Shown: one piece after another, positions 14,614 through 29,061 of the stretch | Numbering within the stretch: the stretch's first letter is position 1 | Layout of the letters: every line of letters starts with the position of its first letter | Source: a virus | DNA: 30,325 nt | Virus record (IMG/VR): IMGVR_UViG_3300037336_000252 | Location: 1 to 30,325 of that record | Strand: one strand, 5' to 3' | The notes under the pieces: model-generated | The model's database searches: none | Told to the model about the DNA's origin: nothing | What the model saw: the letters and a program-made list of their open reading frames with translations, nothing else | Made by a program: the position numbers and the translations under genes

Positions 14614-15903
14614 TTATGCTGCAACAATCTCAGCTTCGAATACTAATATTTGTTCCTCGTTCAAAGCATCGATATACTTAGCTAGTGTAGCGTCTAAATT
14701 ACCAGTCTTAGCGGTTGTTTTACCAGTTGCTGAGTTGATAGCCGCAATAACAGAAACTTTAGTATAATTCACTGCTTTGTAAGCGTAGTTCGCGTCATCT
14801 TCTGTTTGCGTGTCTTCTCCAGCAGTCGCCTCCTCAGAATCTAATAAATAGATTGAACCTACATTATTAACTACAGGAATAGACAGTGATTGAGAAGATG
14901 TGAATTCAGCAAACGGTTCGTCTGTACTCCATTTTTTCAACAGAATAAATGAGCCAGATTTCGCATAATCAGCACCTTTTGACTGTCTTGTTTCTTCAGC
15001 TAAAATTCCATAAGCAAGATCACCCACTTTGTTTGTAGTTAAGAAGATTACATTTTCTTGTTTCCAAGGCATGTGGACAGTTCTTATACCGTCACGCTCA
15101 GTTGTAATGGTTCTATCAACAACAATGATCTGTAAACCAAACTTACGCTGCATTAATGCATTTACTTGTATTTGGTCCGGCACAGGTATGTTGGCGTTTT
15201 CTCCAGCAAAATTTTGACTAAAAGCATAGTTTTGACGAGTTTCAGCATTTTCTGCTAAATAATCAAAAGCAGTGTCAGACATCATGATAAACTTGATCAT
15301 GTCGCCTTTCATTTTAGCTACTTTAACGATACGTTTAATATCGCTTATAGGTTTAGCGTTTACGGTATCTGACCATGCATTAGTTGTTCCGTATTTATTA
15401 GCGGCTAAATAGCCATAATCAACACGAATTCCAAGACCAACATTATTTTCATCTTCAATTAATGCAACCCCAGTAGATAACCCTTGAAGAAACTCAAATT
15501 CGTGTTTCTCATGAATACCCATTGTACATTTAGTCGCGTCATCAAAAATCTTGTCGATAATTACAGCGTCTTCAACTTTACGAGCCTTTAACACATCAAT
15601 GTCTGTAAGCTGCTTTTCCGTCAACTTCATTTTCATACCATGTTTAGGTATGTCGCCAGTTGCGCTTCCAAGAGAGCTTCTTTTCTTTAATGGTAGGCTT
15701 GAATCTAAAGCAACCACATCAGCGGCTACAATGCTTGAATTTACTGTTAATGTTTGCCATTTAAGGTCAACACTCAATCTTTCCGTCAACATATCTTTAT
15801 ACAGGTATGTCAACTCTGTTTTCTTTCCATTTACTCGTTCTTCAATGGATTTAGCTAATGCGCCGAAGTAGGCGATAAAAGCTACAAATAATGATTTGTT
15901 CAT
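14614..15903 (-). CDS. Major capsid protein
   Basis: This 429-residue protein has the size and position expected for the main head protein, after scaffold and decoration-like genes. The sequence resembles the major capsid protein E-type proteins seen in Bacteroidota phages: an N-terminal helical arm, then DLKWQTLTVNSS, a central alpha/beta region (IKFIMMSDTAFDYLAENAET), and a C-terminal part with an aromatic strand (YAKSGSFILLKKWSTDEPF). An extra Glu/Thr-rich C-terminal tail (SEEATAGEDTQTEDD) follows and could be surface-exposed. Codon use and GC appear a little higher than in neighbouring tail genes, as is common for highly expressed capsid genes; this was judged by eye. Confidence 0.8.
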   Translation of the reverse strand: MNKSLFVAFIAYFGALAKSIEERVNGKKTELTYLYKDMLTERLSVDLKWQTLTVNSSIVAADVVALDSSLPLKKRSSLGSATGDIPKHGMKMKLTEKQLTDIDVLKARKVEDAVIIDKIFDDATKCTMGIHEKHEFEFLQGLSTGVALIEDENNVGLGIRVDYGYLAANKYGTTNAWSDTVNAKPISDIKRIVKVAKMKGDMIKFIMMSDTAFDYLAENAETRQNYAFSQNFAGENANIPVPDQIQVNALMQRKFGLQIIVVDRTITTERDGIRTVHMPWKQENVIFLTTNKVGDLAYGILAEETRQSKGADYAKSGSFILLKKWSTDEPFAEFTSSQSLSIPVVNNVGSIYLLDSEEATAGEDTQTEDDANYAYKAVNYTKVSVIAAINSATGKTTAKTGNLDATLAKYIDALNEEQILVFEAEIVAA

Positions 15904-15906
15904 GAT

Positions 15907-16305
15907 TTAGTCTTTTGTAAAACGGATTAATGGTAAGGCAGTTTGGGCCGCAGCTAGTACCGAAGCAATAACATAGGCAGAGGCGTTCTTGTTAACCGAA
16001 CCTCGAACCATTACTGATACGAAAGGTTTAGTTTTTAAAACACTCGATACAACAACACCTTTGTAGGTGTGAGAAGCTGGCAATGCGCCATAGTTTTCTC
16101 CTGAAATAGGCATAGGTTTTAAAACTCCTGTTGAAGTTTCTTCTATAACCAAATGACCCGCTGGAATTACATCAGGAGTAAATCCTGTTACATCCAACGT
16201 TTTACCGCCTGGAATTACTTCCAATAAATGAGCGATTACAATACTGTCGTTACCAGTATCGAATGTTTCAGCGGCATTACTTAAGTTAGCGGTTGTTCCC
16301 GACAT
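15907..16305 (-). CDS. Head decoration-like protein
   Basis: This 132-residue protein lies between the scaffold-like gene and the major capsid gene. The sequence is beta-rich and Gly/Val-rich (GHLVIEETSTGVLKPMP, then HTYKGVVVSSVL, then FVSVMVRGSVN), which recalls the lambda gpD-type decoration proteins that stabilise the expanded head: they bind at capsid three-fold sites and have this strand-rich make-up. Size and position fit. The match is by eye, without alignment. Confidence 0.55.
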   Translation of the reverse strand: MSGTTANLSNAAETFDTGNDSIVIAHLLEVIPGGKTLDVTGFTPDVIPAGHLVIEETSTGVLKPMPISGENYGALPASHTYKGVVVSSVLKTKPFVSVMVRGSVNKNASAYVIASVLAAAQTALPLIRFTKD

Positions 16306-16330: not shown

Positions 16331-16984
16331 TTATACTTTTCCTTCAAGCATTTTATCAATTACGTCTTGGTTTACTTTTGGGTTTGGATCACCTCCCCCG
16401 GCTGGACCACCGTAATTATTAGTATCAGCAGAAGCTTGAACCAACTCGCTGTATTCAGTCTCCAAACCTTTGATTTGGTCTTCAAATGAAGTTTCTGAAT
16501 TAACGTCTATACGGCTCACCCAATTAGGTTTAATGCTTTCTGGAATTCTTTTCAAAACCTCAGATTTAGCAAATAAATCAGATGCTGTCGCTTTTTTTGT
16601 TTCTAAAACTTTACCAGTTTTGATTGTTTCCAATTCCTCTCCCAACTTCTTGTTAGATTCCAAAATAGCTTGAGCCCATGCTGGGACATCGCCTTTTGGT
16701 GGTTCTGGGTTGGGTGGAGTTGGTGGATTAGGCGGTGTTGGTGGATTAGGTTCTTTAGATTTTGCCTCAAGAGTTCTAACTCTGTCATCCTCTTTTGCAA
16801 TGTCTTCGATGCTTAAAACATCGTTAAAACCATTAATCAATAAATCAATCGCTGCGTCATCCGCACCATCGGCTGGTTTAACTGCGAGTTTATCCGCTAA
16901 TGCGTCTAGCCTCTTTTGTGATAGGTTTGCCTTAGGAAACAATGCCTTAAGTCTGTCAATCACTTTTTGTTTTTCTACTGCCAT
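16331..16984 (-). CDS. Scaffold-like protein with proline-rich linker
   Basis: This 217-residue protein has an N-terminal helical region (VIDRLKALFPKANLSQKRL), a strikingly proline-rich linker at residues about 78-98 built from NPPTPP units, a coiled-coil region (AQAILESNKKLGEELETIK) and a Gly/Asn-rich tail. Helical, acidic, hydrophilic proteins directly upstream of the capsid gene are typically scaffolding proteins that guide head assembly and then leave. I see no protease catalytic triad, so no separate maturation protease can be named. A TAnnTTTG box lies 32 nt upstream of the start. Confidence 0.6.
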   Translation of the reverse strand: MAVEKQKVIDRLKALFPKANLSQKRLDALADKLAVKPADGADDAAIDLLINGFNDVLSIEDIAKEDDRVRTLEAKSKEPNPPTPPNPPTPPNPEPPKGDVPAWAQAILESNKKLGEELETIKTGKVLETKKATASDLFAKSEVLKRIPESIKPNWVSRIDVNSETSFEDQIKGLETEYSELVQASADTNNYGGPAGGGDPNPKVNQDVIDKMLEGKV

Positions 16985-17223: not shown

Positions 17224-17240
17224 GTTAGCAGTAATACTAC
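17224..17240 (-). repeat. Cassette end (half recombination site) after the methyltransferase
   Basis: On the minus strand GTAGTATTACTGCTAAC covers the stop codon of the methyltransferase. Its reverse complement, GTTAGCAGTAATACTAC, closely matches the bases that begin the same cassette at 18084 going left (GTTAGCAGTAGTACGG). No second arm of the hairpin follows, so only half a site is present. Confidence 0.65.
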
Positions 17241-17992
17241 ATTTGTTCTCCGAATGAAGTTACTACTGTAAAATCTTTTTCTTTTCTTTTTTCTTCCACC
17301 CTCTCTAAAGAAATATTAAAATACTCTTTGTTATTCTCAATACCTATAAAATTTCGGTTAGTATTTATGCAAGCAACTCCAGTAGTTCCCGAACCCATAG
17401 TGAAATCTAAAACCGTTTCATTTTCGTTTGTGTAGGTTTTTATTAAATATTCCATTAATGCAACGGGTTTTTGTGTTGGGTGTAGCCCTGCGTTTTTATT
17501 ATCTGCCTTAGTAAACTCAATTATAGCTTTTGGGTGGTACTCATCATTTATGTTAGCATCTAAACCAGATGTAGTGCTTACCTCGTGTTTGGTATTATAA
17601 CCACCTTTTTGTCGCATTACACCTTTAGTTTTTATGGGATAGTAGTTGTGTAAGTTAAAAACAGATATATTTTCAAAAGGCTTTAAAGGTTGATATTTAA
17701 CGGATGCAAAATTTCCAGCCTTTTTCTTATCCCATATCCAATCATACTTATAGTTTTTAATATTACTCATTCTCAAAGCACTACTAAAAGGCTCGCTACC
17801 AAATAATACAATAGCTCCGTTTGGCTTTATAATTCTATTTAATTGTTCCCACATAAGTTTAAAATCAATAACTGAATCCCATTTACAAGCCGTTGTGCCA
17901 TAAGGTGGGTCTGTTATAATAGCATCTATACTTCCGCTTTCAATCGTTTTCATTACTTCAAGGCAATCTCCAAATCTTAAATCTATTGTCAT
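17237..17992 (-). CDS. DNA (N6-adenine or N4-cytosine) methyltransferase
   Basis: This 251-residue enzyme transfers methyl groups from S-adenosylmethionine to DNA. The catalytic DPPY motif is at residues 28-31 (ITDPPYGTT), an HPTQKP motif is near residue 167, and the S-adenosylmethionine-binding FTMGSGTTG is at about 197-205. Catalytic motif before binding motif is the beta-group order. No restriction enzyme gene is adjacent, so it is a solitary enzyme, perhaps protecting phage DNA from host restriction. It is not a normal member of the head operon: it is flanked by a complete hairpin site upstream and a matched half-site downstream and interrupts the run from portal to scaffold. Confidence 0.9.
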   Translation of the reverse strand: MTIDLRFGDCLEVMKTIESGSIDAIITDPPYGTTACKWDSVIDFKLMWEQLNRIIKPNGAIVLFGSEPFSSALRMSNIKNYKYDWIWDKKKAGNFASVKYQPLKPFENISVFNLHNYYPIKTKGVMRQKGGYNTKHEVSTTSGLDANINDEYHPKAIIEFTKADNKNAGLHPTQKPVALMEYLIKTYTNENETVLDFTMGSGTTGVACINTNRNFIGIENNKEYFNISLERVEEKRKEKDFTVVTSFGEQM

Positions 17993-18074
17993 ATTTTAAT
18001 TTTTTGCCCTACCTAAAAAAAGAAAAGAAAAAAGTTCTGTTCTCCGATTGAGCATTTGTGGTTAATTACCGTAC

Positions 18075-18172
18075 TACTGCTAACACGTGCTATAAGAAAT
18101 AGCGGGTTCAGTGGTAAATTGATGTTTTCGTTTTCATAATCCGCTACTTCTCATAGCACCATCCGTTATGTG
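18075..18172 (-). repeat. attC-like recombination site inside the head operon
   Basis: Read on the minus strand, the site begins with an ATAACGG box, then a stem arm GTGCTATGAGAAGTAGCGG, a loop of about 30 nt, the returning arm CCGCTATTTCTTATAGCAC and a GTGTTAGC box. The stem is 19-22 bp with G-T wobbles and one mismatch. The 5' arm has about three more unpaired bases next to the box than the 3' arm. The same layout is seen at the junctions of the 24.5-30 kb array. The 5' box and arm form the last codons of the upstream 78-residue gene. Confidence 0.75.
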
Positions 18173-18370
18173 TCCTTTTTCAATTAAATGCTTGACTTTT
18201 GAAACAACATTTTTCCTTTGTGTTGAAGAAAGATTGCTGTTGTTTTCTTTGATTAACTTGAATTCAGCAATTAATAATTCATAATCACTAATCAAGCTTT
18301 CAGTTTTAGCCTTAATGCGTTGCTTTTTGGCTTTTCGCTGTTTGAAAAAATTTATAATATAATTTACCAT
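18134..18370 (-). CDS. Small phage protein coupled to portal; C-terminus runs into the hairpin site
   Basis: This 78-residue basic, helical protein starts on the stop codon of the portal gene (1-nt overlap), so it is a normal member of the head operon. It has a Lys/Arg-rich start (FFKQRKAKKQRIKAK) and a helical second half (STQRKNVVSKVKHLIEKG). I do not recognise a named family. The last residues (ITDGAMRSSGL) are encoded by the first arm of the attC-like site, so the original C-terminus was probably replaced when the methyltransferase cassette entered. Confidence 0.7.
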   Translation of the reverse strand: MVNYIINFFKQRKAKKQRIKAKTESLISDYELLIAEFKLIKENNSNLSSTQRKNVVSKVKHLIEKGHITDGAMRSSGL

Positions 18371-19800
18371 TACGCGGTTGGGTTAACAGGTTCTACGATT
18401 GCCTTAGCTTTTTCAGCATCAATTAAAAGCATTTCAGCTTTTGGGTCTTCAACCATATCAATTAATTTAATGGCGGTTTCAGAGGACATTAATCCAGCCT
18501 CTTTTAATTTAGTGATAACATCAGTTGCACTTTGAATATCGTCAGGAATGATTGAATTAAAGATAATATCAAAATACAAAGCAGCCGCCTCTTTAGCCAA
18601 GGTTGTGTTTGTTGTCATTGATATTCCAGACAAAATAATATTTGCAATACGCTCAATCATTGTTCTGTTTTCCCCTTCATTCATTAACGCCTTAATAACT
18701 GCATCAAGAAACAACAATTTCAAAGCCACTCCAGATATTGCTCCAAGTCCTTTAACGTTGTCAAATGATAAATCAGGGGTTTGAGAAATTGAATAAATCA
18801 AGTCTTTAATGCTCTCCGTTTCTAGCTTTGCAGACTCGACAGAGTTAGATGCTGACAGGAATTCAGCTCTTCCGTTAACATACTTTCCTTCATCATCTTT
18901 TTTCATTGGAAAGTTTATAACCTTGCCCATCGCATCTTTTTCTGGCAATGAAGCCACTTCTCCGAATGTCATTAAAATAGGGTATGCACTATAATCATTC
19001 GAGCCTCCTAATTTTGAAAGCGTAGTTTCGTATCGGTCAATCAATTCTCTTACTCCAAACCATTCCGGCTCATCTTGTGAAACGTAAACAATAGGAATTC
19101 TATCAAAACCATGTTTTATAATTCCTTTTTCTGAATAAGTCAAAACCCCTGATTTATCATTCAAGTAATGGAAGTTAAGATTGTCCCAAATTTCAACGTG
19201 GTTAATATCCGTACCGCTTTCATCAGCTGCAACATACTCCCACATAAAAGCCAACATATCGCCCGAAACATCAAAATAAGGCGTCATCATTCCTTTTGTG
19301 TTTTCTAAAACCTTTGATTTGATTTCTTTTGCTTGCGACTTTAAACCTATCTTGCTTAAGATTTTATTTAATACAGAGCTCGGGTTTAAGTCTGAAATAT
19401 AAAATTGAATAGCTGATTGCGTTTCCGATTTTTTAAGAGAAATAATCTTTTGAATTTTACTATCAATTCTATTTACTTTCCAAATTTGGTAAAACAATTT
19501 TGATAGGCTATTTTCATCTGAAGGAATTAAAGTCGCTGGCTTTCCAACTTCAAAAGCTGTAGCTGTATTTACAATCTTCTTTGCAAAATTTATAGGAATA
19601 CGAACTGCTTTGATGTTATTGTTGTCTACGGTTTTATCCTTTTGAATTTTTCCGACCTGAGTGTCACGAATACTCCTGTCGTGGTCTTTATACTCTTTTT
19701 GATACTCCTTAATTTTAGCAATATCCTTGCTTTGCTTCTTAATAACATCAATTACTTTTTGAGGTTCATTAAGCAAATCTTTTAAAAAATTTTCTTCCAT
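18370..19800 (-). CDS. Portal protein (SPP1 gp6-like)
   Basis: This 476-residue protein follows the large terminase gene by 4 nt, the usual order. The sequence resembles the SPP1 gp6-type portal family: an N-terminal KEYQKEYKDHDRSIRDTQ segment, then IKAVRIPINFAKKIVNTATA leading to the pore-forming core, an acidic region that recurs in portals (HVEIWDNLNFHYL), and LSFDNVKGLGAISGVALKLL, which is typical of the family's C-terminal part. The portal is the dodecameric ring at one head vertex through which DNA is packed and released. Its stop overlaps the start of the next small gene. Confidence 0.85.
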   Translation of the reverse strand: MEENFLKDLLNEPQKVIDVIKKQSKDIAKIKEYQKEYKDHDRSIRDTQVGKIQKDKTVDNNNIKAVRIPINFAKKIVNTATAFEVGKPATLIPSDENSLSKLFYQIWKVNRIDSKIQKIISLKKSETQSAIQFYISDLNPSSVLNKILSKIGLKSQAKEIKSKVLENTKGMMTPYFDVSGDMLAFMWEYVAADESGTDINHVEIWDNLNFHYLNDKSGVLTYSEKGIIKHGFDRIPIVYVSQDEPEWFGVRELIDRYETTLSKLGGSNDYSAYPILMTFGEVASLPEKDAMGKVINFPMKKDDEGKYVNGRAEFLSASNSVESAKLETESIKDLIYSISQTPDLSFDNVKGLGAISGVALKLLFLDAVIKALMNEGENRTMIERIANIILSGISMTTNTTLAKEAAALYFDIIFNSIIPDDIQSATDVITKLKEAGLMSSETAIKLIDMVEDPKAEMLLIDAEKAKAIVEPVNPTA

Positions 19801-19804
19801 GGCT

Positions 19805-21274
19805 TTAATAATTTATTTTATTTAATTCTTCTGCGCTTGTTTTTAAAACTATTGTATTTGAGTTGTGAGCGATGTGGCCATAACGTGCCGCATCCCAAAT
19901 ATGGTTAAACTTGTCTAAAGGTTGGTTAATAGCAATACCAGCTATCTCTTTCATTTTGTAGTTTTGCTGTTCCTTTAACGCTTGTTTGTAAAGATGGTTT
20001 TTAACGATGTGAATTTTCTTCTTCTTCATCGACCCAAGCCAGAACATTACAGATTTTGTTTTGCTGATTTTATAAGCATTTACAAATCCTTCGCGTTTCA
20101 AACCCTTTACCATTTCAACCGTTCCTTTATTCTCTCCTGTATATTTATCAGCAGAATCGCAAGGAATGATATCTTTTGCCTTGTCTATACCTAAACTTTC
20201 AAGCAATAAGGATAAAGACTCTGGATTGTCGATAGGCTCATAGGATAATGGTTCTATCCAAATATTATGCTCATCTTCTGCGTATTTAATAAGCGTATTT
20301 GGATCAACTGTAAATCCAAAATCATTTGGATATATAACCGCTTTGTCTTTTGGAAATTTATCAATCCATGACACAAATGGAAATATCAACCCTTTCATGG
20401 CGCCACGTAATCCCAAGCCGTAACACCGCCAATACACTTCATCAGCAGTTCCATTCTTGATATTTTCTTCGTTTGGTGGTAGTTGGTTCGTTTCTGAAAT
20501 TGGTTCTATTTTTCCAGTGAGTTTATTGTAAATCTGGATTACATTTTCTTTGATTATATAAGAGCCTGTTTTCCACGGTTCGGTTATAACTATCTCGTTT
20601 CGCTCCTGTGGCGTTATGAATTTATTATCTTTAAACGTGGTTCGAACAAATGCTACATCTGGACGAGTTAGAACATTATCAAAAAACCAATGGTCCGTAA
20701 ATGATGGATTATAATCCGCCCACCAAAATTTACGACAACGCATTTTAACCTGGTCAAAGACTGATTTCTTAATAAACATAACTTCATTGAAAAAAGCATA
20801 GTCACAACCACCCCCATGCTTACCGTCTCCAATAAAATATATTTTACTATTTCCGATTTTGAAGGATTTAATTTCATCGGTGTCTTTGAATTTATTAGGC
20901 AAACCGAAATGATCTAACCGCCTCTTGAAGTCATCATATAGAGTAGTTTTAAACTCGTTGTAAGTCTCTCTATAGATATTTATAGTGCATCCATCTATTT
21001 CTACAAATTTACATAACCAAATTATAGCGTCAACGCTGGACCAAGTTTTACCACTCCTACTTGAGCCTTCTAATGCGGCACCACGATAACCAGATACGAG
21101 CTCTAATTTACCATCAACAAAATCATATTTTTGGCTGGTTATTGATTCGAAAAGTAGTTTGTAGTTTGGATTTGTTTCTTCTTCTAATTCACACAGCCTC
21201 TTATGTGAAATATCAATGTCTCTTTCGTTTAAAAGAGTTTCAAATTCTAATATTTCAGAATCAGTTAAAGGCAT
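19805..21274 (-). CDS. Terminase large subunit (packaging ATPase and nuclease)
   Basis: This 489-residue protein is the motor that packs phage DNA into the head and cuts it. The Walker A motif GSSRSGKT is at residues 70-77 within ALEGSSRSGKTWSS. A hydrophobic-acidic segment (DYAFFNEVMF) near residue 150 fits Walker B. The nuclease domain follows, with an acidic strand (DFGFTVDPNTLIKYAEDE), a conserved CDSADKYTG segment and a C-terminal acidic site (FNHIWDAARYGH). Start is ATG at 21272-21274, 2 nt after the stop of a 54-residue gene. Length and domain order are normal. Confidence 0.93.
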   Translation of the reverse strand: MPLTDSEILEFETLLNERDIDISHKRLCELEEETNPNYKLLFESITSQKYDFVDGKLELVSGYRGAALEGSSRSGKTWSSVDAIIWLCKFVEIDGCTINIYRETYNEFKTTLYDDFKRRLDHFGLPNKFKDTDEIKSFKIGNSKIYFIGDGKHGGGCDYAFFNEVMFIKKSVFDQVKMRCRKFWWADYNPSFTDHWFFDNVLTRPDVAFVRTTFKDNKFITPQERNEIVITEPWKTGSYIIKENVIQIYNKLTGKIEPISETNQLPPNEENIKNGTADEVYWRCYGLGLRGAMKGLIFPFVSWIDKFPKDKAVIYPNDFGFTVDPNTLIKYAEDEHNIWIEPLSYEPIDNPESLSLLLESLGIDKAKDIIPCDSADKYTGENKGTVEMVKGLKREGFVNAYKISKTKSVMFWLGSMKKKKIHIVKNHLYKQALKEQQNYKMKEIAGIAINQPLDKFNHIWDAARYGHIAHNSNTIVLKTSAEELNKINY

Positions 21275-21665: not shown

Positions 21666-21887
21666 TTTATAAATTTTTAAATTAAAAAAACAACTAACAT
21701 TTGATTTTTTATAAGGCTTTAACACTACCGTTTTAAGACCTAACGTGAACCGACTCAAATTTTCTACGTTCCAATAGGCATTTACTCGAAACGCCTCCAA
21801 TAACTCACGCATAGCATATGATTTTAACGAAGAATACAAGCCTCCGATTGGTTATACTTGAGGGCTTATCCTCATGAGCTGTTTTAG
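21666..21887. other. Stretch without a convincing gene
   Basis: I see no supported gene here. A frame on the minus strand continues upstream from the lipoprotein but has no plausible function. A small hairpin (TGAGG and CCTCA, 21859-21874) lies just downstream of the tRNA and could mark processing of its 3' end. The rest is AT-rich leader. Confidence 0.5.
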
Positions 21888-21960
21888 TTGCAAGGACGGG
21901 ACTCGAACCCACGACCTGATGGTTATGAGCCACCCGAGCTACCAACTGCTCTACCTTGCT
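21888..21960 (-). tRNA. tRNA-Met (anticodon CAT)
   Basis: The 73 nt fold as a cloverleaf on the minus strand: acceptor AGCAAGG with CCTTGCA, D arm GAGC/GCTC, anticodon loop CTCATAA, and T arm GTGGG-TTCGAGT-CCCGT. CCA is not encoded. The first acceptor pair is an A-A mismatch. The initiator-type three G-C pairs in the anticodon stem are absent, so an elongator Met tRNA, or an Ile tRNA with a modified CAT anticodon, is more likely than an initiator. Confidence 0.88.
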
Positions 21961-22751: not shown

Positions 22752-23939
22752 TTATTCAACTGTTACTCCGTTGTGTTTAATTGTTAATGTAGGGTCTAGT
22801 TTTCGCATTCTTTTTACACAAACATCAACGTACCTACAATCCAACTCCATACCGTAGCATTTTCTTTTAAGTTGGTGAGATGCTACCATTGTACTTCCGC
22901 TTCCTAAAAATAGGTATAATACACTTCCACCACTTTTACTACCATCGTTTATTCCTTTTTCACATAATGGGATTGGCTTCATAGTTGGGTGTAAATCATT
23001 TTTTTTAGTACGTTCAATGTCCCAAATATCCATTCCATTATTTCCACCATAAAAATTATGTTCAGATGCCCACCCATAAAAGATTGGCTCATATTTACTC
23101 ATATAATCAGAATTAGAAAGTGTATGGTTTCCTTTATTCCAAATTATCAAAGCTCTATATTGAAGTCCTGTCCTTTTCATACTTGCGAAATATTTATCTA
23201 TCCCAAGTCTATAAAATGAAATGTAAAAAGCTCCTTTACAAAAAAGAAGTATGTTAGTATTTATAGAATCTAAAAAATCATCACCGTCAGAATCGGACAT
23301 TTTATCATTTTTTATTACACCGTGTTTAGCGTTAAACGATTTACTTCCATCTACGTTTATTCCACCCGTAAAATCCATTAAGTAAGGAGGGTCTGTAAAC
23401 ACCATATCCGCTTTTTCACCATTCATTAACTTTGCAACCGTATCACTGCAAGTACTATCTCCACAAAGTAAACGATGCTCTCCAATTTCGTAAAGGTCGC
23501 CTAAAACGGTTATCGGTATTTCGGGCGGTGTAGTATCAAAGTCGTCTTCTTCAGCTTCTAAAACTTCCGTATTAAACTCTGGAATATCCAACCCCCACTC
23601 GGTTAACTCTTCGGCTTCCCATTCGTTGTTTAATTGCTCCCAATCCCATTCGCCAAAACCAACGTTATCTTTTATAATAAATTCATTTTGTTGTTGCTCG
23701 GTTAAATTTGATGCTTTGATTATTGGAACTTCTTTTAAACCCGCCTCTTTACATGCTTTTAATCGCATATTGCCACCTAATACAATCATATCATCGTTGA
23801 CTACAATAGGGCGCAAATTAAGCATTTCCGGAAAGTCTTTAATAGACTGCACCAACTTTGCAAACTTATCATCTTTGATGGTTCTAGGGTTGTTTGGGTT
23901 CGGTTTTAAATCGCTTAATTTTTTAGTTTCTATAATCAT
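22752..23939 (-). CDS. ParB-like nuclease domain fused to DNA methyltransferase
   Basis: This 395-residue protein has two parts. Residues 1-100 form a ParB-type domain (LKPNPNNPRTIKDDKFAKL, then IVLGGNMRLKACKEAG with the GGNMRL motif near 55-60). Residues about 140-390 form a DNA methyltransferase with DPPY at 183-186 (FTDPPYLMDF), HPTMKP near 320 and the S-adenosylmethionine-binding FLGSGS at 344-349. Such fusions are common in phages and mobile elements and modify DNA at a specific site. It sits upstream of the small terminase, so it may modify DNA before packaging. The ParB part may bring the enzyme to its sites. Confidence 0.88.
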   Translation of the reverse strand: MIIETKKLSDLKPNPNNPRTIKDDKFAKLVQSIKDFPEMLNLRPIVVNDDMIVLGGNMRLKACKEAGLKEVPIIKASNLTEQQQNEFIIKDNVGFGEWDWEQLNNEWEAEELTEWGLDIPEFNTEVLEAEEDDFDTTPPEIPITVLGDLYEIGEHRLLCGDSTCSDTVAKLMNGEKADMVFTDPPYLMDFTGGINVDGSKSFNAKHGVIKNDKMSDSDGDDFLDSINTNILLFCKGAFYISFYRLGIDKYFASMKRTGLQYRALIIWNKGNHTLSNSDYMSKYEPIFYGWASEHNFYGGNNGMDIWDIERTKKNDLHPTMKPIPLCEKGINDGSKSGGSVLYLFLGSGSTMVASHQLKRKCYGMELDCRYVDVCVKRMRKLDPTLTIKHNGVTVE

Positions 23940-24566: not shown

Positions 24567-25271
24567 CTACCATAGCGTTAAAATTCGAGTTTTGTCTTCC
24601 AAACGCTTACAGGCATTGTCGTAGAAACCCTTATTAATTTCATATCCTACGAGTTTACGTTTCAATTCCCAACAAGCAATAGCAATACTTCCACTTCCTA
24701 AATGTGTATCTAAAATAAAATCATTTTCATTTGTGTAGTAAGTAAGCAACCACTTGTATAAATCAACAGGTTTTTGCGTGGGATGTATCTTATTCGGTTC
24801 AGCGGTTACAACGTGTTTTCTAAACATCTTTGCGGGTTTGGCAAAACTCATCCAAGCCATTTCACACATTGCACTACTAAAATCTTGTGGTTGCTTTTTA
24901 TCCCAAATTATAAACCCTTGTGATGGTGGTAAATCAAAATAATTACCACCCCAAATAATTTGATTTTTGCTTACTCTCATAAGTTCCTCAAAGTATTGCT
25001 TGCTGGGTATTTCGTTATCCCATTCACATTTTTCAAACTTTTGTCTAAAAGGGTTACTACTTATTCCTATCCCATAAGGCGGGTCAACTATTGCAATATC
25101 AAAGTGGTTATCATCATATCGTTTCAATGCCTGTAAGCAATCCTCGTTATAAAGAGAAATTAGTCCTCCGAAATCCGCACCAGCACATAACACGGGTTTG
25201 GCAAAAGCGGGGCTTCCGTTTTCCAATTGAACATTTGTGGTTTTATTATCTTCTATCATTCTATTAAACAT
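24567..25271 (-). CDS. DNA methyltransferase in a cassette, N-terminus from repeat
   Basis: The enzyme has 234 residues if translation starts at ATG 25269-25271. DPPY is at 63-66 (IVDPPYGIGI), an IHPTQKP motif follows in the middle, and HLGSGS at 190-195 binds S-adenosylmethionine; this is the beta-type order. The first about 35 residues (MFNRMIEDNKTTNVQLENG, then SPAFAKPVLCAG) are encoded by the attC-like site, not by methyltransferase sequence, which really begins near ISLYNEDCLQAL. A GTG within the site box at about residue 27 could be the real start. No restriction enzyme is adjacent. It may protect phage or host DNA. Confidence 0.85.
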   Translation of the reverse strand: MFNRMIEDNKTTNVQLENGSPAFAKPVLCAGADFGGLISLYNEDCLQALKRYDDNHFDIAIVDPPYGIGISSNPFRQKFEKCEWDNEIPSKQYFEELMRVSKNQIIWGGNYFDLPPSQGFIIWDKKQPQDFSSAMCEMAWMSFAKPAKMFRKHVVTAEPNKIHPTQKPVDLYKWLLTYYTNENDFILDTHLGSGSIAIACWELKRKLVGYEINKGFYDNACKRLEDKTRILTLW

Positions 25272-25318
25272 TTGTGGTTAAAATCCCCGCCTTTGCCAAG
25301 CCCGAACCCGTTGTGCGA
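25183..25318 (-). repeat. attC-like site, methyltransferase cassette / 74-residue cassette
   Basis: Minus-strand order: GCACAAC box, arm GGGTTCGGGCTTGGC then AAAGGCGGGG, loop of about 70 nt, arm CCCCGC then TTTTGCCAAACCCG, box GTGTTATGTGC. The loop holds two copies of ACCACAAATGT and part of a methyltransferase-like repeat element. The stem is 20 bp or more with bulges. Confidence 0.75.
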
Positions 25319-25582: not shown

Positions 25583-25720
25583 TCGCACAACAGCAGTTAC
25601 ACAAGATGGCAAAATTTATTAGTAGCATCACATTCACGTTTCGCAATAATATTTATCTTTAACGGAAAATATCCAGTCACGAACTTTGCCACTTCTTGTA
25701 GCTGCGAAACGTTAGTTGTC
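25583..25720 (-). repeat. attC-like site between HicA and the 74-residue gene
   Basis: Minus-strand order: ACTAACG box, arm TTTCGCAGCTACAAG then AAGTGGCAAAG, loop, arm TTTTGCCATCTTGTGTAAC then TGC, box TGTTGTGCGA. The arms pair over about 20 bp with some mismatches. It is the first site left of the toxin-antitoxin cassette. Confidence 0.7.
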
Positions 25721-26503: not shown

Positions 26504-26645
26504 CGGCTAACAACGGTTTTATTCAATTTTGCAGGTTTGGTCTTTTTTTATTTTGGAAGTTTTTTAATCTAAAATTTGTCTATATTTGTTAAGGCTTGGT
26601 TATCAATCAGCAAAACTGAAATAAAGCCGCAAAACGTTAGCAAAC
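26504..26645 (-). repeat. attC-like site between the 95-residue cassette and hicBA
   Basis: Minus-strand order: TTTGCTAACG box, arm TTTTGCGGCTTTATTTC then AGTTTTGC, long loop, arm GCAAAATTG then AATAAAACCG, box TTGTTAGCCG. The stop codon of the upstream gene is the TAA of the box. Confidence 0.7.
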
Positions 26646-26945: not shown

Positions 26946-27083
26946 AGTGATAACAAGTGTTTGCAGTCAGTGGCTAGATTTGGTTATTTCCGAAATATTT
27001 CGGATTAATTTATTTAATTTTTTGTACTTGAATTATTAGTGATTATTCAGCCACCGAACGGCAAGCACTCGACCGTTAGTAGC
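26946..27083 (-). repeat. attC-like site between the lipoprotein and 95-residue cassettes
   Basis: Minus-strand order: CTACTAACGG box, arm GAGTGCTTGC then CGTTCGGTGGCT, loop, arm AGCCACTGACTGCAAACACT, box TGTTATCAC. The arms pair over about 18 bp with wobbles. The loop carries the 16-nt perfect palindrome TCCGAAATATTTCGGA at 26989-27004. Confidence 0.7.
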
Positions 27084-27087
27084 TATT

Positions 27088-27345
27088 CTACCGTATAGTG
27101 TCGCCAACATTATATTTATTATTTGTATCATATGTTCCATATTTCAATCCTTGATTATCAAAGTATTCGTATCGACAAAAACCATCGGCAGCATTTAAAG
27201 AATTTGGATATTTAAAAGTTATTATAAATGGTTTTTCTGGCTTTATATTCTCTTTACCACAACTAGTAAATAAAAAAAGAACAGCTACTAACATTGCATA
27301 TACAAAAGCAATAGGATAGTTTTTTGATTTAAATATATTTTTCAT
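27088..27345 (-). CDS. Small lipoprotein in the array
   Basis: This 85-residue protein has a lipoprotein signal (FVYAMLVAVLFLFTSCG) with the modified Cys at residue 29. The mature part contains aromatic residues and ends KYNVGDTIR. I recognise no family. It lies next to a half-site only (27388-27426) on its upstream side, so it probably now shares one mobile unit with the 98-residue gene. Confidence 0.65.
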   Translation of the reverse strand: MKNIFKSKNYPIAFVYAMLVAVLFLFTSCGKENIKPEKPFIITFKYPNSLNAADGFCRYEYFDNQGLKYGTYDTNNKYNVGDTIR

Positions 27346-27387
27346 TTTGTTTTTATTTAGGTTTAATTTATTAATTTGTATTTTTCA

Positions 27388-27426
27388 GCATTGCCTTAGT
27401 ATATGCACTGACGTTAGTGGCAAGGC
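27388..27426 (-). repeat. Degenerate attC-like half-site
   Basis: On the minus strand GCCTTGCCACTAACG and a following CAGTGCATATACTAAGGC are present, but no returning arm with a TGTTR box. The box matches the start of the same cassette at 27745-27753, so the site was probably complete once. Confidence 0.5.
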
Positions 27427-27744: not shown

Positions 27745-27883
27745 GCCACTAACAGCGTGTATAAAAAATGGTGGGTTCTATGTTAATTTAATGTTCTGTG
27801 ATTCTAATTATGTTTTGTGCTTGCTGAAAGTTTTAGAGTTCTAATCCGCCACTTCTTATACACGCAAAACGTTGTTAGCAAAC
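27745..27883 (-). repeat. attC-like site between the zinc-ribbon cassette and the 98-residue cassette
   Basis: Minus-strand order: TTTGCTAACA box, spacer of eight bases, arm GCGTGTATAAGAAGTGGCGG, loop of about 70 nt, arm CCACCATTTTTTATACACGC, box TGTTAGTGGC. The stem is about 20 bp with two G-T wobbles and two mismatches. Confidence 0.78.
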
Positions 27884-28108: not shown

Positions 28109-28211
28109 TTTGCTAACACCACCTATACACCATAAAGCGATTGAGGATAGTGTTAAGATTAAACATTCTGCTACGCTTTACGGTGCATAGCTTTACCGTT
28201 ATAGGTAAGGC
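28109..28211 (-). repeat. attC-like site between the 106-residue and zinc-ribbon cassettes
   Basis: Minus-strand order: CTATAACGG box, arm CTATGCACCGTAAAGCG, loop of about 40 nt, arm CGCTTTATGGTGTATAG, box GTGTTAGC. The arms pair over 17 bp with two G-T wobbles and no mismatch. Confidence 0.78.
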
Positions 28212-28553: not shown

Positions 28554-28676
28554 CCCTACCTATAAAAGCACATAGGCAATATGGCGGAGTTATTGGTTAA
28601 TATTAAGTTTAGTTTTTCAATTCAAGTTTAGTGGTGTAAATCCCGCACTTCGCAAAGCCGCAATCCGTTACCTGCC
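28554..28676 (-). repeat. attC-like site, box mutated on one side
   Basis: Minus-strand order: GGTAACGG box, arm GCGGCTTTGCGAAGTGCGGG, loop of about 60 nt, arm CTCCGCCATATTGCCTATG, then TTTATAGG, where the expected GTTA is TTTA. The arms pair less well than at other sites. The altered box may make this junction inactive. Confidence 0.6.
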
Positions 28677-28930: not shown

Positions 28931-29061
28931 GGCAACACAGTATAAAATTAATACGGGTTAAGTGCCAAATTGCAGCGAATTACTTTTTAATTAAGTTTAG
29001 ATAAGTACGGATGGTTTTCGCTTTTTATTACCGTACTAATCTTATACAAACCGTTATACCC
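28931..29061 (-). repeat. attC-like site between the GIY-YIG and 76-residue cassettes
   Basis: Minus-strand order: GGTATAACGG box, arm GTATAAGATTAGTACGG, loop of about 70 nt with further pairing, arm CCGTATTAATTTTATAC, box TGTGTTGCC. The arms pair over 17 bp with only G-T wobbles. Confidence 0.8.

Follow-up and report, generated by a model that had tools for sequence, protein, structure and literature searches.

The late operon of a phage carries a DNA methyltransferase gene among its head genes, and we wondered how the gene came to be there. The stretch of DNA analyzed, hereafter called the window, spans 30,325 nucleotides (Table 1). Its late operon lies on the minus strand. Relatives of its terminase occur in Flavobacterium and other Flavobacteriia genomes and in viral contigs, and the window phage is a flavobacterial tailed phage of Bacteroidota. 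A sequence-only reading had proposed that a methyltransferase cassette, with a complete attC-like site and a matched half-site at 17224, entered the operon between the portal-linked small gene and the scaffold gene, far from the array. Our analysis makes it very probable that the cassette entered a 71-codon head gene by integron-type site-specific recombination at TAAC/GTTA.

Table 1. Positions of the window features discussed in the text.
Feature	Position	Strand	Remarks
Window record			Linear IMG/VR virus record, 30,325 bp
Capsid E-type major capsid protein	14614-15903	-	Late operon
132-aa gene	15907-16305	-	Late operon
Scaffold-position gene, adjoining capsid genes	16331-16984	-	phrog_5824 and synteny in relatives
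Complete cassette unit, 941 bp	17225-18165	+ (read G|TT to G|TT)	Removal restores head gene; ends recur in 40 other viral contigs
R' start of cassette, GTTAGCAGTAATAC	17224-17237	+	13/14 complementary to R'' end 18071-18084
Orphan N6/N4 DNA methyltransferase, 251 aa, cassette cargo	17237-17992	-	N6_N4_Mtase PF01555 E=5e-34; phrog_67 E=1e-79
R'' end of the cassette's attC-like site, GTTAGCAGTAGTAC	18071-18084	-	Inverted match to R' start
attC-like hairpin of methyltransferase cassette	18081-18168	-	57.2 bits, E=5e-10; G.T wobbles at stem pairs 8 and 13
78-codon head-operon gene	18134-18370	-	Last 10 codons read through insertion junction; native form 71 codons, ending KGHITVK
Portal protein, SPP1 gp6-like	18370-19800	-	PF05133 E=2.5e-46
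Terminase large subunit	19805-21274	-
Array attC-like site	25188-25313	-	Covariance model E=2e-5; N-terminus of methyltransferase 24567-25271 starts inside
Array attC-like site	25589-25717	-	Stem scan score 15.75
Array attC-like site	26508-26639	-	Covariance model E=1.7e-4
Array attC-like site	26951-27078	-	Covariance model E=0.004
Array attC-like site	27289-27416	-	Covariance model E=0.006
Array attC-like site	27750-27874	-	Covariance model E=2e-7
Array attC-like site	28114-28201	-	Covariance model E=3.5e-7
Array attC-like site (weak)	28563-28670	-	Covariance model E=0.017
Array attC-like site (scan only)	28934-29055	-	Stem scan score 14.5

On the plus strand the inserted unit reads G|TTAGCAGTAATAC, the methyltransferase gene in reverse, GTACTACTGCTAAC, the hairpin and G|TTATG. 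It opens with TTAGCAGTAATACTAC, CATCCG follows the hairpin, and both borders are G|TT. There are exactly two copies of GTTAGCAGTARTAC, one at 17224-17237 (+) and the other at 18071-18084 (-); they are mutually inverted, as expected for the R' start and R'' end of one and the same cassette. Circularization would join these ends into a single attC with an extended R''/R' pair. Position 17224 is therefore not a half-site, as had been thought, but the start of a complete single cassette with its own attC. The matching ends reported earlier are real, in inverted order. The cargo is indeed a methyltransferase. Direct reading of the protein reveals the DPPY and FxGxG-type motifs of N6/N4 DNA methyltransferases, and no restriction partner was found near the gene. 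By analogy with known orphan phage methyltransferases, it most likely shields phage DNA from host restriction.

In silico removal of the cassette joins the flanks as AAAGGACACATAACTGTAAAATAA and turns the 78-codon gene into a 71-codon gene, whose 71-residue product ends KGHITVK before the stop. The native residues of the 78-codon gene end after KGHI and TDGAMRSSGL is encoded by the cassette, confirming that the last codons of the longer gene lie inside the first hairpin arm. Homologues of the small gene at 18 loci, among the matches listed, end KGHIKVNK, KGHIKVNQ, KGHIQVNQ, KGHIVVNK, KGHLTINK, KGHVQVIQ and the like, and are about 71-75 residues long where complete. Neither the hairpin nor the methyltransferase was found at these 18 listed loci, no methyltransferase of the cassette type occurs at any terminase-relative locus, and the covariance model described below had no match in the empty-site relatives. 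In L112, which has the nearest relative of the small gene (66% identity), the portal, small and scaffold genes stand together: the scaffold gene comes about 140 bp after the small gene, a short spacer with no insert. Two other loci (L003 and L004) have different small genes at this position. The sequence-only reading had expected relatives with an uninterrupted portal, small-gene and scaffold block and a junction at YAAC/GTTA boxes, and both expectations held. Methyltransferase without hairpin, or the reverse, was not seen in the relatives, as both are absent.

The restored native tail is only three residues long. A tail like that of the relatives is restored by 8 of 15,168 arbitrary deletions spanning the region, and 7/8 are one GTTA junction shifted within its overlap. 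This rarity argues that the junction is not due to chance. Because cassette removal also restores the reading frame, misassembly at the junctions is unlikely. A self-contained cassette, bounded by G|TT and leaving an uninterrupted target when removed, is inserted at one exact point in the last codons of the small head gene.

The attC-like hairpin lies where it had been placed. Twenty-five hairpins of recombinase-bearing phages, all from outside the window, served to build a covariance model, and the cassette hairpin is its top match in the window. The other window matches with E<0.02 number seven, all in the array at 25.2-28.7 kb and on the same (minus) strand. The cassette hairpin is thus homologous to the array sites of other phages. 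Across 979 kb, mostly recombinase loci together with the window and two sibling arrays, the model gave 172 matches, nearly every one on the strand of the genes. Terminase relatives that are not on recombinase-bearing records, 947 kb in all, gave 3, on two contigs. Across 149 distinct aligned sites, 95.8% of the cells are paired, compared with 55% in shuffles. Folded as RNA, the minus strand of the cassette hairpin reaches -32.3 kcal/mol (z -4.0, 0/200 shuffles as good); the opposite strand, folded as single-stranded DNA, reaches -14.0 (z -2.6). Like the site of an integron cassette, the hairpin has R''/R' complementarity of its own and folds better on one strand. The stems are gapless in an ungapped scan, which scores no bulges. 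Stem pair 13 is G.U (G.T) in 141/142 aligned sites, in an alignment that leans to the model; among sites found by the scanner alone, which scores G.T and A.C alike, pair 13 is G.T in 62/117 and pair 14 in 39/117. The G.T at pair 13, an A.C mismatch on the other strand, is a fixed strand mark.

Neither a tyrosine recombinase in the window record, a linear fragment, nor an attI-like sequence beyond chance-level matches in the window was found. The array of the window therefore counts as a CALIN, and we infer its enzyme from sibling phages. About 28 N-terminal codons of the second methyltransferase (24567-25271) consist of the DNA of array site 25188-25313. Array site 27289-27416 overlaps the 5' part of an ORF at 27088-27345, and its ends mismatch those of its neighbours, as in a fused or decayed site.

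Comparison with other phages indicates that such units move. For 53% of neighbouring array pairs, the cassette start matches its own R'' over at least 5 nt after GTT; the same match is found in 6% of cases within one physical site and in 2% of random cases. The 19-base end of the window cassette, ATGTAGTATTACTGCTAAC, occurs exactly in 40 other viral contigs (reversed control, 0), 24/40 of which have the matching start GTTAGCAGTARTAYGG within 1.5 kb. The TAAC of this end is followed by 35 different 12-mers. Some of the 40 contigs have genes other than this methyltransferase, so the cassette ends are more widely shared than the cargo.

When entire cassettes of different records were compared as DNA, no full-length pair passed the filters, and for this reason two cultured phages of Flavobacterium sp. 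LMO6, snusmum6 and mymlan6, were compared over whole loci. A 788-nt unit (100% identity) and a 700-nt unit (99.6% identity) occupy different array positions in the two. Each unit has its hairpin first, at or just past TAAC, and ends at the next TAAC. The upstream hairpin therefore travels with the gene, and its polarity is that seen in the window. A third common stretch starts past the hairpin, and not all breakpoints are clean. Similar units have been shuffled between the two isolates. The mymlan6 homologue of the window methyltransferase has start and end letters identical to those of the window cassette.

The candidate enzyme is a tyrosine recombinase of 266-267 aa encoded by sibling phages (L130 and L155); three phages of the terminase clade of the window carry it. 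XerA, XerC/D and IntI profiles all matched below cut-off. The best match, to NF040815 (XerA/XerC/XerD), reached 187 bits against a curated cut-off of 220; with the IntI profile TIGR02249 the scores were 139 and 147 bits, the cut-off being 265. Ahead of the HxxR motif, 36 residues separate two conserved blocks that are 84 residues apart in IntI4; judged by this spacing, the recombinase lacks most of the IntI-specific insertion. In a midpoint-rooted tree with some long branches it stands apart from two sampled IntI (support 99/87). A host IntI was considered as the mover and rejected, as none scored above the cut-off in eight Flavobacteriia genomes. At E<=1e-60 no copy of the recombinase was found in 199 genomes of one Bacteroidota family, in a search run without a positive control. 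At E 1e-45 across the phylum Bacteroidota, 82/395 have recombinase relatives with 36-56% identity.

Most of 80 viral relatives of the recombinase have attC-like sites, nearly all of them on the strand of the recombinase gene and no more than a few kb before its start. In most loci an attI-like junction, TAAC|TACTATATGTA, lies 51-52 nt before this start. Its recombinase side is conserved and its cassette side variable, as expected of attI, and its place beside the recombinase gene is that of attI in IntI integrons. When flipped, the sites show classical attC polarity, with AAC-A in 119/147 and C-GTT in 138/147. The cassette genes do not run toward their own attC: 102/105 are on the recombinase strand with the travelling site upstream. 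The sibling recombinase probably moves such cassettes, and would either act in trans on the window cassette or have been lost since.

Under the reading we favor, the methyltransferase is a circularizable integron-type cassette of one gene and one attC-like hairpin. Its target was an ordinary TAAC/GTTA at the 3' end of the 71-codon head gene, an attG-like secondary site that resembles attI by TAAC/GTTA only. Site-specific recombination, presumably on the folded minus strand and by the ~267-aa XerA-like recombinase found beside sibling arrays, left the upstream operon intact. The last 3 codons and the stop of the head gene gave way to 10 codons that run across the junction into cassette sequence, and the orphan methyltransferase came to lie co-directionally within the late head operon.

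Other histories of the locus can be imagined. In one clade member (L155/L202) an integron occupies the portal-scaffold gap, with the array after portal and the recombinase before the scaffold gene in the same orientation; this reading joins both contig ends, which are taken as circularly permuted. The earlier claim that a cassette entered the operon stands, but this locus is not always distant from an array. The single cassette could therefore be what remains of a whole integron, with array, attI and recombinase, once present in the gap. We consider this improbable: the scaffold-side junction of the window is not attI-like and matches a native small-gene terminus, the frame returns once exactly one cassette is taken out, and the intact small gene and short scaffold spacer of L112 also point against it.

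Phage accessory genes often arrive by homologous or illegitimate recombination, and the portal-scaffold gap is variable in relatives, so that the methyltransferase might have come in this way with a chance neighbouring hairpin and no integron-type enzyme. Both ends lie at G|TT, however, and their recurrence in 40 contigs before 35 different followers is not expected from flanking homology, which makes this history very unlikely. Least credible of all is that the hairpins are RNA elements such as terminators, processing signals or translation controls, repeated for expression rather than mobility. They do lie upstream of genes, and the better-folding strand is the sense strand, with G.U pairs; an additional RNA role may exist beside mobility. 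As a replacement for mobility, an RNA role leaves unexplained the cassette-wise complementarity of ends, the shuffling of units, the attI-like junction and the restored gene. The window insertion is well supported as a real, precise ectopic cassette insertion.

Cassette insertion at secondary (attG) genomic sites is known from bacterial integrons. The window resembles such events in that a lone cassette, not part of an array, occupies a short GTT-type target. It differs in its target, a phage head gene, and in its enzyme, which would belong to another clade. With class 1 and chromosomal integron cassettes the phage units share G|TT borders, R''/R' pairs of their own, a folded single-strand site and arrays. 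As in classical integrons, the recombinase gene is divergent from the site polarity and has an attI-like junction. In contrast to these, phage cassette genes run toward the recombinase, the sites are marked by the near-invariant G.T wobble and the recombinase is not IntI. It has the same catalytic core as XerA/XerC/XerD (NF040815), but is genetically tied to attC-like arrays. The phage system is of the integron kind and not categorically new. It may well be a second integron lineage, with a recombinase outside the IntI clade, inverted genes, an invariant G.T wobble and insertion into phage structural genes, widespread in Bacteroidota phages, chromosomes and plasmids; we hold this with less confidence than the insertion itself.

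Phage cassette arrays are already known as CALINs, including that of Polaribacter phage P12002L, whose P12002L_attC2 was recombined by IntI1, in a study that used IntegronFinder and HattCI plus INFERNAL (Qi 2023, PMC9892861). The arrays are alike in their attC-like sites and methyltransferase cargo; the text consulted reports neither a phage-borne non-IntI recombinase nor a lone cassette in a structural operon. No Bacteroidota or phage integron with a non-IntI recombinase was found in the literature searched, which comprised published, mostly open-access papers. To judge from this literature, phage integrons with a non-IntI recombinase are new, and so is an ectopic cassette insertion that can be placed to the nucleotide in a virion operon.

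The window provides a natural case, exact to the nucleotide, of a gene cassette entering a virion operon, and the relatives have the empty site intact. The case suggests an integron-like system that standard finders probably overlook, because its recombinase is not IntI and its genes lie inverted. Cassette exchange would then let phages trade methyltransferases, which are likely anti-restriction genes.

Related elements were also seen outside the phages. On Flagellimonas marinaquae plasmid NZ_CP092416.1 (L267, 4592-6792), erm(F) has an attC-like site on one side and, on the other, an attI-like TAAC|TACTGGATAT that directly precedes a related recombinase (xerA); the ends of the erm(F) unit, GTTATGCGG and CCGCATAAC, match. 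With such sites flanking erm(F), the system may also bear on the exchange of resistance genes. On plasmid pHH1107 (L268) the tnpF beside tet(X3) is related to the phage recombinase, at 49% across some 206 residues, and no sites were detected there. A Chryseobacterium plasmid (L266) and four Bacteroidota genomes (L297, L298, L303, L309) have longer recombinases of about 350-390 aa, with arrays downstream and polarity opposite to the phage type. Three other Bacteroidota genomes (L294, L299, L305) have short recombinases with sites upstream like the phage type, and are possible chromosomal or prophage counterparts. At one locus (L236:4913-6058) three sites are inverted, whereas the array and recombinase a few kb away have the usual orientation.

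Elsewhere in the window, a tRNA-Met gene (21887-21960) adjoins the terminase gene, and a ParB_N and N6_N4_Mtase fusion gene (22752-23939) lies between terminase and array. A 69-bp unit is repeated in seven tandem copies at 408-1062, within a long minus-strand ORF (320-2314).
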